From: Janibacter limosus
GTDB taxonomy: Bacteria > Actinomycetota > Actinomycetes > Actinomycetales > Dermatophilaceae
DNA: 64,000 nucleotides
Direction of reading: 5' to 3'
Assembly (NCBI RefSeq): GCF_004295485.1
Contig: NZ_CP036164.1
Span: 2,232,001 to 2,296,000 of the forward strand
The translations under genes and the position numbers were made by a program. Every line of letters begins with the position of its first letter. Position 1 is the stretch's first letter. Positions 58,360 to 63,733 of the stretch are shown here, piece after piece. Below the pieces are notes generated by a model. The model saw nothing but the letters and a program-made list of their open reading frames with translations, was not told the origin of the DNA and searched no databases.

Positions 58360-58471
58360 GGCAGACAGACCTCGGAAACTCGTGGAGCAGATGTTGGGCG
58401 GCCCTGTGGCGACCGGGTGAGGTCACGACGGGCGGCTGGTGAGCCGCGATCATCTTCCCACACGTGGCTTC

Positions 58472-58536
58472 GAGGCTCGTACCTCGCACCTCAGCCAGCG
58501 TGGGAGGCTCCTACCTCGCACCTCAGCCAGCGTGGG
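58472..58536. repeat. Two tandem copies of a 32-bp GC-rich repeat
   Basis: GAGGCTC(G/C)TACCTCGCACCT followed by CAGCCAGCGTGGG occurs at 58472-58504 and 58504-58536, differing at one base. It fills the gap between the divergent malic enzyme and metalloprotease genes. The element is distinct in sequence from clusters A-D but similar in style. Confidence 0.8.
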
Positions 58537-58645
58537 TACGTGTGTGTCACCATCTACCTACGCCGCACCTCGGGGCCTCGCCCCTCCCCCTTCGCACGAC
58601 GGTCACTGCGGCTGGTGCCGCCGACTCTTTGCCCGGAGCCCACTG

Positions 58646-60643
58646 ATGCGCAGCCGCCGCCTCGTCCCCGCAGTGCTCACCGCCGCCCTGGCCCTCACGA
58701 CCGCCGCAGCCGCCCAGGCCGACGACGCGACGACGACCGAGGCACGGGTCCGGCTGACCGGCGAGCTGATCAAGACCTCCGTCGAGCACCGAGGGGACAA
58801 GCAGTGGCTGGCCGTGCGCGTCGGCGACGAGCTGGTACCCGTCAGCGGAGACGGTCTCGAGCACACCCCGCCGCACGCGCAGGTGACGCTCGACGTCCGC
58901 GCCCCGCAGAGCGTCGTCACCGCCGCGCAGACCGGGAGGACCCTCACCGTCCGCTCGGCGGGCAAGAGCCCGACCAGTCACCGCCTCGACCAGGCCGCCC
59001 TGCGTGCGGCGTCCGACAGCACGCCCGCCACGTCATCGTCGACCCTTGGGGCGGCGAGCACCGACGTCGCCATGTCACCGGACAGCGCCCCGCTGGAGGT
59101 CGCCCAGGTCGTTGCGGCCCAGGAGGCGAGCAGCGCCGACTACGTGCCGGCCACCCGTCGCATCACCTATGTCGAAGTCACTCCCAGGGGCATGACCCGC
59201 GAGCCGATCACCCTCACCCCCGCGACCCAGCAGGTCGCCGCGAGCAACGCCTACTGGCGCGACCAGTCCCGCAGCGAGCTGCGCATCGGCGCACCGACGA
59301 CGATCACGCGTTACACCTCCGCCTTCGCCTGCGACAGCGACCCGATGAAGCTGTGGAACGAGGCGATCAGCAGGACCGGCTGGGCGTGGACCGACAACTC
59401 CAGCCTCGTCCTGAAGCTGCCCTTCGCCGCCGGCCCAAGCTGCGGGTACGGCCTCGGCTCCCTCGGCGACACCCCCAACTCCCCAGGCGTCCTGCACGTC
59501 TCGGACATCGCGGCGCCCGTCCTGGCCCACGAGCTCGGCCACAACATGGGGATGGACCACGCCAACTCCCTCGTCTGCACCGACCGCGACGACTCCCGCT
59601 ATGACAGCGTCAACGATTGGTGGACCACCTGCGACGAGGCGCAGTACGGCGACGCGCTCGACATCATGGGCCCTTCCTTCCCCGTGGACATGCCGATGCT
59701 CTCGACCCCGCAGGCGCTGCGTCTCGGGCTGCTCCCGAGCGCGGCGGCCGTGCCCGTCGGCTACGGCACCACGCGCGTCACGCTCAAGCCCCTCTCCGGG
59801 CTCGAGGGCACCCGAGCCGCGGTCATCAGCAATGTCAGCACCGGCGTGCAGTACTGGGTCGAGTACCGCACCCGCACCGGACGCGACACGACGGACCCCC
59901 GGGTCCAGGACACCGGGGTGCGGGTACTGCGCACCAGCCCACTGTCCGGCTCCGTCCTGCTCGACCCCACCCCCACCGGCACCCTCGACAACCAGTCGGC
60001 TCTGACAACCGGGCACACCTTCAGCAGCTACGACGGCAAGGTGCGCGTCACGACCGAGTCCGCGGGTGCCGGCGGCGCCGTGGTGCGCATCGACAACACC
60101 TCGCGGCTGCCCGGCTTCACCCGCACGACCTCCCCGAGGATCGCTGGGACGCCACGTGTCGGCCAGCTCCTCACCGCCTCCACCGGCTCGTGGTCGCCGA
60201 CTCCCTCGCGCTACACCTATCGGTGGAAGCGCAACGGCGCCAACATCTCCGGCGCGACCCAGCGGACCTACACACCGACCACCGCCGACGCGGGCCGCAA
60301 GCTCAGCGTGCGGGTCGAGGTGACGAGGTCCGGCTACAGGACCGCGTCGGCCACCTCCGCGAGCGTCGGGATCCCGATCCATGCGACCACCCGCCCCTAT
60401 CTCAACGGCACCTTCCGCGCAGGCCAGACCATCACGGTCAGGGCGGGCACGTGGACCCCGCGGCCGACCAGCTACAGCTACCAGTGGTACCGCAACAACG
60501 TCGCGATCGCGGGCAGGACCGGCACGACCTACACCCTGACCAGCAAGGACAAGGGCACGCGCATCCACGTGCACGTCACCGCCCGCCGCACCGGATACGT
60601 GACCGGCGCGGCGATCACGCTGCGCTCGACCGTCGCCAGCTGA
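58646..60643 (+). CDS. Secreted metzincin-type zinc metalloprotease with Ig-like repeats
   Basis: 665 residues. A Sec signal peptide is at about 1-29 (MRSRRLVPAVLTAALALTTA, AAAQADD). A pro-region is followed by the catalytic domain with zinc site HELGHNMGMDH (residues 295-305, HExxHxxGxxH) and a Met-turn in ALDIMGPSFP. Two C-terminal Ig-like repeats (about 491-575 and 579-665) carry GTPRVGQLLTASTGSW and NGTFRAGQTITVRAGTW with YRWKRNG/YQWYRNN. It looks like an M11/M12-type secreted peptidase that binds a surface. ATG 58646 is preceded by GGAG. One base separates its stop from the convergent HD gene. Confidence 0.85.
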   Translation: MRSRRLVPAVLTAALALTTAAAAQADDATTTEARVRLTGELIKTSVEHRGDKQWLAVRVGDELVPVSGDGLEHTPPHAQVTLDVRAPQSVVTAAQTGRTLTVRSAGKSPTSHRLDQAALRAASDSTPATSSSTLGAASTDVAMSPDSAPLEVAQVVAAQEASSADYVPATRRITYVEVTPRGMTREPITLTPATQQVAASNAYWRDQSRSELRIGAPTTITRYTSAFACDSDPMKLWNEAISRTGWAWTDNSSLVLKLPFAAGPSCGYGLGSLGDTPNSPGVLHVSDIAAPVLAHELGHNMGMDHANSLVCTDRDDSRYDSVNDWWTTCDEAQYGDALDIMGPSFPVDMPMLSTPQALRLGLLPSAAAVPVGYGTTRVTLKPLSGLEGTRAAVISNVSTGVQYWVEYRTRTGRDTTDPRVQDTGVRVLRTSPLSGSVLLDPTPTGTLDNQSALTTGHTFSSYDGKVRVTTESAGAGGAVVRIDNTSRLPGFTRTTSPRIAGTPRVGQLLTASTGSWSPTPSRYTYRWKRNGANISGATQRTYTPTTADAGRKLSVRVEVTRSGYRTASATSASVGIPIHATTRPYLNGTFRAGQTITVRAGTWTPRPTSYSYQWYRNNVAIAGRTGTTYTLTSKDKGTRIHVHVTARRTGYVTGAAITLRSTVAS

Positions 60644-60644
60644 C

Positions 60645-61910
60645 CTATCGCCGCGACTCCAGCGCGCGCTCGAGCGCGGACACGACCTCTGGGTCGTAGT
60701 CGTAGCCCAGCCCGAGGTGCAGCCGCTCCAGCGCAACGCCCCGGGCCCACGGCGAGCGGGCCCCCTCGGTGATGTCGTCCCACGCGTTGGCGACACGCAC
60801 GATGCGGGAGGGAAGGGGGATGTGCTCGCCGAACTCGCGAGTGCGGCGGAAGGGGGTGCCGACGTGCGCGACGAGTGGCGCCACCGAGGCCAGCTGCGGG
60901 GCGCCGGCGATGACCCTCCGTGCGGCCGACGCCATCTCTTCGACCTCGGCGGCACTCGCGTAGATCGTGGCGCCCCCGCGCAGGGGCTCGGTCAGTCCGA
61001 GCTGCCCGATGTCGTGGAGCATCGCCGTGCGCTCGACCTCGTGGAGACCCACTGCGTCGAGGTTGAGCTCCTGCCCGATCAGACACGCGATCTCGACGAC
61101 ACGCCGCACGTGCCCCACGCGCGTGAGCTCGGTGACCTCGGTCAGTCGGGACAGCGCCTGGAGGGACTCGTCGAGCGACTGGCGGATGGTCACGACGCGG
61201 TGGACCGCCACATAGCTGAGGAGCACCGGGATGGTGAAGAGGGGGATGGCAGCCCAGTCGACGATCCGGCTGGCCAGGGCGATGAGGGGGCCCGTCGTGA
61301 CCGTCGCCGCCGAGACACCGGCGACCGGCCCGATCTCGGAGCCGAGGATGCGGGCGAGGGAATGCCCCTCGACCCACCACGCGACGGCACTGTCCAGGAC
61401 ACGCTCGACGACTCCACCGGCGGCGGCTGCTGCGAGCAGACCCATCGCTCCCAGGCCACGATGCGTGTCCGCGGCGAAGGCCCAGTCGACGAGGGTGCTG
61501 CCGTCGACGCTCACCCCTCGCGCGCACAGGCAGGCCACCGCCATCCCGATGAATCGTGAGCCCAGCGAGCCCTCGACGACGGACCGTCCGAGGATCCGCG
61601 CGATCAACCCTCCGAGCAGGATGCTCAGCCAGACGACGGCAAGGACGGTCGACGCGGTCGGCCTCTCCCCCCACTCCGCCAGCGGCATGAGGATCAGCCC
61701 CAGTGCGGGCGCCGTCGTCAACGGTGCGATGACTCGCCGAGAGATCCTCACGGGCAGCTGCTCGCCGATGATGATGGCCAGGACGGCGGCAACCGTCAGT
61801 GGCGTGACCATGCCGGGCGTGATCTCGCCACGCACTGCAGCGATGGAGCCGATGAGCACGGCCACGACGAAGAGGAGCAGACCCGGGCGCCGTCGGAGCC
61901 AGGAGATCAT
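60645..61910 (-). CDS. Membrane HD-domain protein, second of a pair
   Basis: 421 residues. About six membrane helices (1-230; GLLLFVVAVLIGSIAAV, AAVLAIIIGEQLPV) precede an HD-GYP-type domain (about 260-420). The first half-site is intact: TAMLHDIGQLGLTEPL carries the HD pair. The second half (normally HHExxDGxGYP) is lost and reads VAHVGTPFRRTREFGEH. HD-GYP domains hydrolyse c-di-GMP or related dinucleotides; this one alone lacks ligands. The ATG overlaps the stop of the paired gene (ATGA). Confidence 0.78.
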   Translation of the reverse strand: MISWLRRRPGLLLFVVAVLIGSIAAVRGEITPGMVTPLTVAAVLAIIIGEQLPVRISRRVIAPLTTAPALGLILMPLAEWGERPTASTVLAVVWLSILLGGLIARILGRSVVEGSLGSRFIGMAVACLCARGVSVDGSTLVDWAFAADTHRGLGAMGLLAAAAAGGVVERVLDSAVAWWVEGHSLARILGSEIGPVAGVSAATVTTGPLIALASRIVDWAAIPLFTIPVLLSYVAVHRVVTIRQSLDESLQALSRLTEVTELTRVGHVRRVVEIACLIGQELNLDAVGLHEVERTAMLHDIGQLGLTEPLRGGATIYASAAEVEEMASAARRVIAGAPQLASVAPLVAHVGTPFRRTREFGEHIPLPSRIVRVANAWDDITEGARSPWARGVALERLHLGLGYDYDPEVVSALERALESRR

Positions 61911-63127
61911 CGGGCCGTCACCCGGGGCAGCTGGTCCAGCTCCAGGGCTCGCCTCAGCGCTGCGACGCACGACGCGTCGAGGCTCTTGCCGACCAGCGCC
62001 TCGCAGTGCCTCACTGCCCTGTCGGGCGGCAGACCGCTGGCGACGGCATCGCCCCACGTGTCCGCAACCGCGACGACGCGTGCGCCGATCGGGATGTCCT
62101 CGCCGATCAAGCCCTGCGGACGGCCCTGGCCGTCGACCCTCTCGTGGTGGGCCGCGATCAACGACATCGGTCCGTCCAAGAACTCCACCGAGCCGAGGAC
62201 CCGCTGAGCGGCTGCAGCGTGGTCGCGGCGCACGATCGCCTCCGGCGCGCCCTGGAGGGCAAGGTTGCCCACGTCGCGCAGGCGCGCGGCCGTCGTCACC
62301 TCGTCGACGGCGACGGGCGTCAGGCCGACGCCGGTGGCGATCGCGGTGGCCGCGCCACCGACGAGGCGAGCCTCCTCCGCGGCCCCGGGCTGCCGCAGGT
62401 CGAGTGCCACGACGAAGGGGTTGAGCACCTCGTGACGGATCGCCCACTCCGAGGAGTGGGTGTGCAGGCCCCACTGGATGACGAGGATCGAGGGGAGGAA
62501 GAGCACGGCCGAGACCCAGCCCAGCCCAGCAGGGGCCCAGAGCAGGACCAACAGGTATGCCGCGAGCGCGTAGCTCGCGTAGGGGGATGAGATCTGACGA
62601 ACGACATCGGTGAAGATCGCGCGCATCGAACCCGCAGAGCTCAGCTGGATCACGCCAGCGAGGAGCACCGCGTTGACGAGACCGGCGCTCACGGACGCCG
62701 TCGTGATCTGCACTGCCAGCAGAACCGGCTGCACACCTTCCCGCGCCGTGGTGACAGTAGTCCCGCCGACGAGCCAGTAGCCCGCGGCTCCCGCCAGCAC
62801 GTAACAGACACGTTGGCTCACGTTGAACCACCGCTTCACGGGCTCATTGCGGTCCAGCAATACCGGCAGTCCTGCAACCAGCGCGGCGCCGAACGGACCA
62901 AGGAGCGGGATGGAGGCGATCTGCACGATGCCGGAGACCGAGATCTGGACCGCACCGATCGCTTGGGGTCTTCCGACGGCTGCGATCCCAGCAACGACGA
63001 CCATCGCGATGAACCAGCTCAACTGCTGGGGTGGTCCAGCGGACAGCCACGCAACGATCAAACCCAAGATGGCGAGGGCAGCGATCGACACGACGTAGTC
63101 GCGCGTCGCCCTCGCCAGGCCAGGCAC
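61907..63127 (-). CDS. Membrane HD-domain protein, first of a pair
   Basis: 406 residues. Several N-terminal helices (YVVSIAALAILGLIVAWLSA and others to about 220) precede an HD-GYP-type domain. The HD pair is replaced (ARLRDVGNLALQGAP, with RD), but the second half is kept as IAAHHERVDGQGRPQGLIG, close to HHExxDGxGYP. This is the mirror of its neighbour's loss. The start is taken as GTG 63127; GGAGG lies unusually close to it, so initiation may depend on coupling to the GADWA gene 29 bp upstream. Confidence 0.75.
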   Translation of the reverse strand: MPGLARATRDYVVSIAALAILGLIVAWLSAGPPQQLSWFIAMVVVAGIAAVGRPQAIGAVQISVSGIVQIASIPLLGPFGAALVAGLPVLLDRNEPVKRWFNVSQRVCYVLAGAAGYWLVGGTTVTTAREGVQPVLLAVQITTASVSAGLVNAVLLAGVIQLSSAGSMRAIFTDVVRQISSPYASYALAAYLLVLLWAPAGLGWVSAVLFLPSILVIQWGLHTHSSEWAIRHEVLNPFVVALDLRQPGAAEEARLVGGAATAIATGVGLTPVAVDEVTTAARLRDVGNLALQGAPEAIVRRDHAAAAQRVLGSVEFLDGPMSLIAAHHERVDGQGRPQGLIGEDIPIGARVVAVADTWGDAVASGLPPDRAVRHCEALVGKSLDASCVAALRRALELDQLPRVTAR

Positions 63128-63156: not shown

Positions 63157-63528
63157 TCAGGCGTTGCCGAGTGCGCTTGACCCGGTAGCTACCGGGGCGG
63201 CCCAGTCGGCACCATCATCTTGAGAAGCGGCCCAGTCGGCACCGTCATCTGTGGAAGTGGCCCAGTCGGCACCGGCCGGACGCATGGTGCGCCAGTCGAA
63301 GCTGAGACCGAAGGGCAACGCCCAGTCGGCGCCATCATCCTGGAGTGCAGCCCAGTCGGCTCCAGCCGGATGCATCGTGCCCAAGTCGAGGCTGAGGCCA
63401 AAGGGCAGTGCCCAGTCGGCGCCGCTCCTCTGCTGCGCCGCCCAGTCGGCACCGCCCTGGGGCGTGAGAGGACCCGACAGGGTCAGTGCCAAGGTCGTCG
63501 CGCCCACAAGGGCCATGATCTTCTTCAC
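63157..63528 (-). CDS. Small exported protein with seven GADWA repeats
   Basis: 123 residues. A signal-like N terminus (VKKIMALVGATTLALTLSG) is followed by seven GADWA pentapeptides at residues 26, 36, 56, 66, 86, 96 and 106. The spacing is 10-20-10-20-10-10. The 10-residue units have the form GADWAxxxDD. The 20-residue units read GADWALPFGLS(L/F)D, then T-M-(H/R)-PA. The upstream frame (to 63897) is not coding. I know no family for it. It is first of a likely operon with the two membrane HD proteins. A multi-copy peptide precursor or a repeat scaffold are the obvious options. Confidence 0.75.
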   Translation of the reverse strand: MKKIMALVGATTLALTLSGPLTPQGGADWAAQQRSGADWALPFGLSLDLGTMHPAGADWAALQDDGADWALPFGLSFDWRTMRPAGADWATSTDDGADWAASQDDGADWAAPVATGSSALGNA

Positions 63529-63658: not shown

Positions 63659-63733
63659 ATGAGCAAGCGCGCCCGCAAGCGTCGCTCCCGCAAGGGCAAG
63701 TCCGCCAACCACGGCAAGAAGCCCAACGCCTGA
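63659..63733 (+). CDS. Ribosomal protein bL37 (24 residues)
   Basis: 24 residues, MSKRARKRRSRKGKSA then NHGKKPNA, nearly all basic. It matches the actinobacterial large-subunit protein bL37 seen in mycobacterial ribosome structures (KRGRKKRDRKKKNANHGK-type, ending PNS). AAGGAG lies six bases before the ATG, and a strong hairpin follows at 63752. It is too short for routine gene calling. Confidence 0.9.
   Translation: MSKRARKRRSRKGKSANHGKKPNA

Follow-up and report, generated by a model that had tools for sequence, protein, structure and literature searches.

The Janibacter limosus chromosome segment examined here (contig NZ_CP036164.1, 64,000 nucleotides; the window) encodes a 123-residue protein with seven copies of the motif GADWA, directly upstream of two membrane proteins with HD domains, which we call HD1 and HD2. 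In our estimate there is an even chance that this protein is a genus-specific, tandem-amplified form of a widespread microprotein, whose tail docks on a sensor with the S-component fold and sets the activity of its HD domains. The gene itself, its selection at the protein level and its close linkage to the HD pair are firm; the docking, the membrane face involved, the sign of the interaction (agonist or antagonist) and the effect of the tail on cyclic di-GMP (c-di-GMP) are what we infer.

The GADWA-repeat microprotein and its operon

The microprotein gene occupies 63157..63528 on the reverse strand, with a GTG start at 63528. Its product is made up of a hydrophobic N terminus (about residues 1-21), seven GADWA units (63199..63453, reverse strand; residues 26-110) and a 13-residue tail. 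The motifs begin at residues 26, 36, 56, 66, 86, 96 and 106, and a re-reading of the frame agreed with the original prediction on the length of the protein, on the spacings of 10, 20, 10, 20, 10 and 10 residues and on a signal-like N terminus, the last as judged by hydropathy, which gave a single hydrophobic stretch, best at residues 4-18. Both 20-residue units start with GADWALPFGLS and end in PA, as had also been claimed. The glycine codons (GGT, GGC and GGA) and the last alanine codons differ between the copies while the residues stay constant, and a protein of 72% identity occupies the same position in another species (L004/L006; L numbers denote loci), so the GADWA protein is not a product of chance. 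Used as a query, it found matches in two of 16 genomes of the genus, the window's own genome counted; two further matches in that genome (E 0.06-0.09) lay in long frames and were disregarded. The earlier statement that no described family has this repeat held in the libraries searched: neither Pfam nor NCBIfam matches the protein at E≤1, nor does PADLOC at E≤0.01, and its single PHROGs match (E 0.43) was taken as chance.

The microprotein stop (63157) is separated by 29 bp from the GTG of HD1 (63127), which has GGAGG immediately 5′ of it. HD1 (HdgA-like; 61907..63127, reverse strand) consists of a membrane domain (about 62519-63127) and an HD_5 domain (about 61940-62434), and HD2 (HdgB-like; 60645..61910, reverse strand) of a membrane domain with a predicted S-component fold and an HD_5 domain. 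The two open reading frames (ORFs) overlap by ATGA at 61907-61910, and the prediction of two coupled membrane HD genes on the same strand, 29 bp downstream of the repeat gene, was accurate. The microprotein stop also lies across a CTG in the HD1 frame (CTGA, 63157..63160, reverse strand), a candidate re-initiation start for HD1 that recurs in the congeners L006-L010 and L013 and in L014. Given this overlap, and given the absence of ATG, GTG and TTG from the HD1 frame ahead of the first membrane helix in L006-L009 and L014, HD1 may start at the CTG by coupled re-initiation. The lack of a usual start in several relatives also made us consider a frameshift fusion of the microprotein with HD1; coupled re-initiation is the simpler of these two possible accounts.

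Tails in the genus and family

The HD1 query had matches at E≤1e-20 in 119 of the 149 family genomes, and the region upstream of HD1 was read in 90 of these 119. Most of the 90 have a short ORF with a tryptophan (W)-containing tail ahead of HD1, and in relatives these ORFs are often 20-50 residues long and end in aromatic-x-W or a related tail; no recognizable tail ORF was found at a few family loci, such as L023, L070 and L079. We define the W-tail family by a short coding ORF directly upstream of HD1 on the same strand, with a membrane-type N terminus and a tail (aromatic-x-W or V/I-x-W), and assign the window gene to it.

Tail units in the genus comprise GADWA and G(F/L)DWA (seven copies each), SWDWA, N(W/Y/F)EWA, SVDWA (three), NVDWA (ten), NIDWA (six) and NVDWV (five). 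Other repeats in the family are RGWTWTG (two), GWEWGG (three), GYHNWEPKA (five), SVLTWRP (four) and TWWWHP (two), and many tails are single, such as NWQWGG, VWGWGG, VSWED and VQWNG. Separate peptide ORFs, two to four of them, occur at several loci. Tandem amplification of tails, with units that differ between species, is recorded in a table of 21 rows from which L026 was left out; units that are alike within a protein and different between species would fit selection for local dose or specificity. This comparison does not support the multi-copy precursor of the original prediction as a general rule, since many relatives have a single tail and the seven-fold form is a local elaboration.

Relatives in the class, the phylum and beyond

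Among 394 genomes of the class, at least 143 matched the family HD1 query at E≤1e-20, a count that includes generic HD-GYP matches. The ORFs upstream include MKKIVSAVEQFLQTTAQWKW, MSKIVSAVEKFLSAQPHWTWEG and MKKLVAAVETYLKGGATWSWH, and others are hydrophobic forms ending in GWSWW. Twenty-two of the class ORFs align nearly gap-free, with E9 and W20 unchanged throughout. For other classes of the phylum, the query was an HD protein from a Desulfosporosinus record (L203); of the 30 best-scoring loci of this search, three were not scorable, which left 27. Here we found an ORF with a clear ribosome site, resembling MKTKIIVLLSSLAALILGGGAGWRW or MKARIYTILTALATLVLAGGARFRF, as well as paired tandem copies such as MARFFKLIFSLVGLGSTVRW. 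A tail-type ORF was present at 25 of the 27 loci by eye and at 21 by a stricter script rule, which gave 0/27 on the antisense strand. Eight loci were read in other phyla: four have a tail ORF, in records of Desulfosporosinus (L203), Clostridia (L217), Pullichristensenella (L234) and Atribacteria (L192), and none was seen at L206, L208, L213 and L237.

Some tails of relatives contain no W (GGARFRF, GGANFKM and GGAGSRMG), and at L305, L307 and L309-L311 there are tandem copies that are identical or nearly so and have a ribosome site each. In family f55, similar microproteins form arrays of up to four ahead of a GGDEF-motif membrane protein (L343, L344, L348-L350, L353 and L354); their tails read GAGWKP or GARWKPN (L343, L344, L350, L354 and others), and a small membrane ORF stands between the array and the GGDEF-motif gene. 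Pfam reported GGDEF plus EAL in both of the f55 membrane proteins scanned (L348 and L350) and DUF5317 in the one intervening ORF scanned (L349); DUF5317 also occurs 3′ of the HD gene in L192, L208 and L358. The outputs of HD and GGDEF proteins both concern c-di-GMP. At L337, L346, L355 and L356, microprotein ORFs of the GGAHWK type stand alone, with no receptor gene seen directly downstream.

Multi-copy, species-specific units, stand-alone copies and the signal-like N termini of some family members are features that a released, possibly processed peptide pheromone would share, acting as a quorum signal that the HD pair detects in cells nearby. We think such a signal unlikely, because no conserved cleavage sites between units were seen by eye, one common form is only about 21 residues long and lacks a cleavable signal, the three-gene operon has no protease or exporter, and the CTGA and ATGA coupling argues for a partner inside the same cell. 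In the known pairs ComX/ComP and AgrD/AgrC, a short precursor gene lies beside a polytopic membrane sensor, and ComX has a tryptophan near its C terminus. The window likewise pairs a short gene with a polytopic membrane sensor, but the three-gene operon holds no prenyltransferase or AgrB-like gene, and the output is an HD domain rather than a kinase.

Linkage to the HD gene

The association of the microprotein with the HD gene is well supported. Under a strict rule, an ATG or GTG ORF had to end between −200 and +60 from HD1 and carry [FWY]xW in its last 12 residues. Such an ORF was found at 52/90 family, 37/68 class and 17/35 named actinobacterial loci, three sets that overlap in part (L165 and L018, for example, are the same contig). 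Dinucleotide shuffles passed in 2.0%, 3.1% and 3.1% of cases, respectively, the antisense strand passed at 2/90, 1/68 and 0/35 loci, and HD-GYP loci of other phyla gave 0/41; L192, which would pass, was counted in neither of the groups to which it belongs. The window fails the rule because it has A two residues before W, where its nearest relative has F or L, and in the genus the cause is A, V, I or similar at this position, or a longer end. As the rule misses the window's genus and the V/I-x-W tails, both of which were read by eye and not blind, the strict counts are lower bounds.

Profile searches gave a similar picture, with the qualification that all three profiles (A5, A6 and A7) include sequences from the genomes searched. 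The 21-position profile A6, which makes no use of HD1, gave 40 places at E≤1e-3 in the 394 genomes. When coordinates were compared among the matches listed, 36 of the 40 proved to lie immediately ahead of HD1. One more (L249), which brings the total to 37, stands before an HD1-type membrane domain that is truncated, and the other three are two contig edges (G198:C33 and G163:C69) and a fragment of 13 residues within a longer frame (G326). Genomes that had given rows to the profile account for 22 of the 36 HD1-linked places and genomes without rows for 14, of which 11 differ from every row and three are identical to one. In the 149 family genomes, profile A5 gave 17 places at E≤1e-3. Of these, 12 have HD1 no more than 300 nt downstream (11 belong to row-giving genomes), two lie some 660-890 nt upstream of HD1 (G040 and G085) and three are at contig edges. 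Profile A7 gave 60 places in 52 of 396 genomes of the phylum, of which 37 lie ahead of an HD gene of the HD1 type (coordinates again compared among the matches listed), one (G869, L322) ahead of an ORF whose membrane N terminus is similar and 11 in arrays ahead of a GGDEF-type membrane gene; the rest are two contig edges, one match inside a long frame and eight places where no receptor ORF was seen. The original prediction tied the repeat protein to the HD pair, and named two results that would count against it: dispersed homologues with no link to HD genes, or a frame that is not translated. Instead, 37 of the 40 A6 matches adjoin an HD gene, and the frames of the relatives are under coding selection, as described below.

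Close linkage and tight coupling, along with very short forms that have one hydrophobic or amphipathic helix, might also be expected of a constitutive small subunit or stabilizer of the sensor complex that carries no signal; CydX, KdpF and AcrZ are small membrane subunits of this kind in other complexes. We judge such a role somewhat unlikely, as related species have strongly different tail units, with amplification up to ten-fold; peptide ORFs are present in sets of two to four at several loci; the hairpin that follows the peptide gene in some lineages points to unequal amounts; and no receptor was seen alongside eight of the A7 places.

Protein-level selection and RNA folding

The ratio of non-synonymous to synonymous differences (pN/pS) in frame was 0.44 over 21 pairs sharing no sequence, with pN below pS in 20 of the 21, and 0.36 for the part before the first W. 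Control values were 1.10 and 1.55 in the other sense frames and 1.16 in antisense. The low in-frame ratio, also ahead of the W, indicates that the chain is selected as a protein and not just for its tryptophan codons.

These values bear on the view that the short ORF is a cis-regulatory leader whose translation, through arrest or tryptophan-codon attenuation, controls the HD gene, its product being inert. The position just upstream of HD1 and the tryptophan codons near the end would suit a leader, and 120-nt regions of 33 chosen loci gave strong hairpins (z < −2) in nine cases. Microproteins with RTWWWTP tails ahead of the HD gene at L085 and L087 resemble trp leader peptides, a likeness in the same direction. 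Yet a leader is improbable, given the selection ahead of the W motif, the relatives with one tryptophan or none, the tandem copies with their own ribosome sites and a mean z of just −1.32; with a z of 0.20 the window shows no special folding, and it does not qualify as a tryptophan attenuator. The hairpin 3′ of the peptide gene in some other lineages would favour more microprotein than sensor.

The sensor pair and known systems

An HD2 ORF is present at 183 of 193 HD1 loci; of the remaining ten, three are ORFs of 960-1054 residues that themselves match HD2 and are possible fusions, and seven end no more than 520 bases past HD1. The window has the two adjacent proteins of an HdgAB-type pair, each with a membrane domain and an HD domain, and lacks the intact HD and HHExxDGxGYP signature of the first member, a c-di-GMP phosphodiesterase signature found in 146 of 193 aligned HD1 rows. 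In window HD1, RD replaces HD and the second motif reads HHERVDGQGRP (GRP for GYP), the first HD domain having lost its HD and GYP signature in the genus; window HD2 retains HD, and HHExxDGxGYP is gone. As both signatures are broken in the genus, the output there may be non-catalytic, for example partner binding. The membrane domain is less conserved than the HD domain in 11 of 17 HD1 pairs and 15 of 16 HD2 pairs (for HD1 of L018 and L031, 60% versus 91%); between window HD1 and that of L006 it is not less conserved (79 versus 76%).

The make-up of this partner also bears on a ribosomally synthesized and post-translationally modified peptide (RiPP) or bacteriocin-like product, for which the HD proteins would be maturation or immunity partners. 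Short ORFs that look like precursors, have aromatic tails and lie next to membrane proteins recall such products, and W-x-W resembles crosslinked motifs such as that of darobactin. We give this origin hardly any credence, as the conserved partner is an HD-GYP-type domain with a sensor-like membrane domain and no known maturase (wider neighbourhoods were not scanned), and W is lost from the tails of some relatives. Of what the original prediction had raised, RiPP processing, judged from the operon itself, and release from the cell thus found no support.

The membrane domains of HD1 and HD2 have a good prediction as the vitamin-binding fold of energy-coupling factor (ECF) S-components. The same predicted fold is shared with 5TMR histidine kinases, from which, as from ECF S-components, the window pair differs in its HD output and its dedicated microprotein. 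Pfam 5TMR-LYT (PF07694) has no match in window HD1, HD2 or the relatives scanned. MASE9 (PF20972) is matched above cut-off over the membrane domain by the relatives L203 and L192, whereas window HD1 and HD2 have no match to it at E≤1. In its treatment of the fold, the article by Partipilo and Slotboom (PMC11109136) describes use in both transport and sensing, and the term ‘HD domain’ does not occur in its main text.

Streptomyces HdgA (6TM-HD-GYP) and HdgB (6TM-degenerate HD-GYP) are like the window pair in two-gene order, in the combination of membrane and HD domains and in the degenerate second member, and the named Streptomyces loci were recovered with the family HD1 alignment. Both HD domains are degenerate in the window, against the second member alone in HdgA/HdgB, and the Streptomyces-type loci read have no convincing W-tail ORF upstream, unlike the family of the window. 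The passages on HdgA/HdgB in PMC6205966 and PMC13232838 report no phenotype or signal; the former describes membrane HD-GYP proteins such as these as expressed without a developmental phenotype and suggests that activating signals were missing. Standing beside most of the non-Streptomyces relatives read, the microprotein, which no paper listed in searches of an open-licence library describes, is a concrete candidate for a missing signal of this type, and may be the missing partner or signal of membrane c-di-GMP sensors.

Proposed function

In the docking model, the simplest one to take in all these results, the microprotein would be made together with the sensor pair, and its N terminus would carry the chain to or through the membrane. 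The aromatic C-terminal motif, in one to ten copies, would be the active part. The S-component-fold domain would offer a pocket of the kind with which transporters capture small ligands from outside, and the tail could dock on or into this domain of HD1 and/or HD2 in the manner of a small ligand bound to an ECF S-component. Once docked, it would set the activity of the cytoplasmic HD domains, and repetition of the motif would raise local concentration or valency.

A broader proposal, to which we lean slightly less than evenly, is that the module is ancient: aromatic tails would be natural ligands of S-component-fold sensors and directly set c-di-GMP turnover, through HD-GYP hydrolysis in most lineages and GGDEF-EAL proteins in one, and diversified tails, multiplied in tandem, would serve as identity tags of a lineage. 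If true, this would link peptide ligands directly to c-di-GMP, supply a ligand for the S-component fold in a role as receptor and give a function to a class of ORF too short for most annotation.

Neighbouring genes

Convergent with HD2 is a large ORF (58439-60643, forward strand) with a metalloprotease-like motif, HELGHNMGMDH, and weak reprolysin matches below the cut-off. At L178, L180, L184 and most of L141-L151, an RsrA-like anti-sigma ORF lies just upstream of the HD pair, which points to a chromosomal location that is conserved. A 24-residue ORF (63659-63733, forward strand), divergent from the microprotein operon, matches the NCBIfam model of ribosomal protein bL37 at 48.4 bits (cut-off 30), and antisense traces of a bL37-like gene were seen by eye upstream of several relatives.
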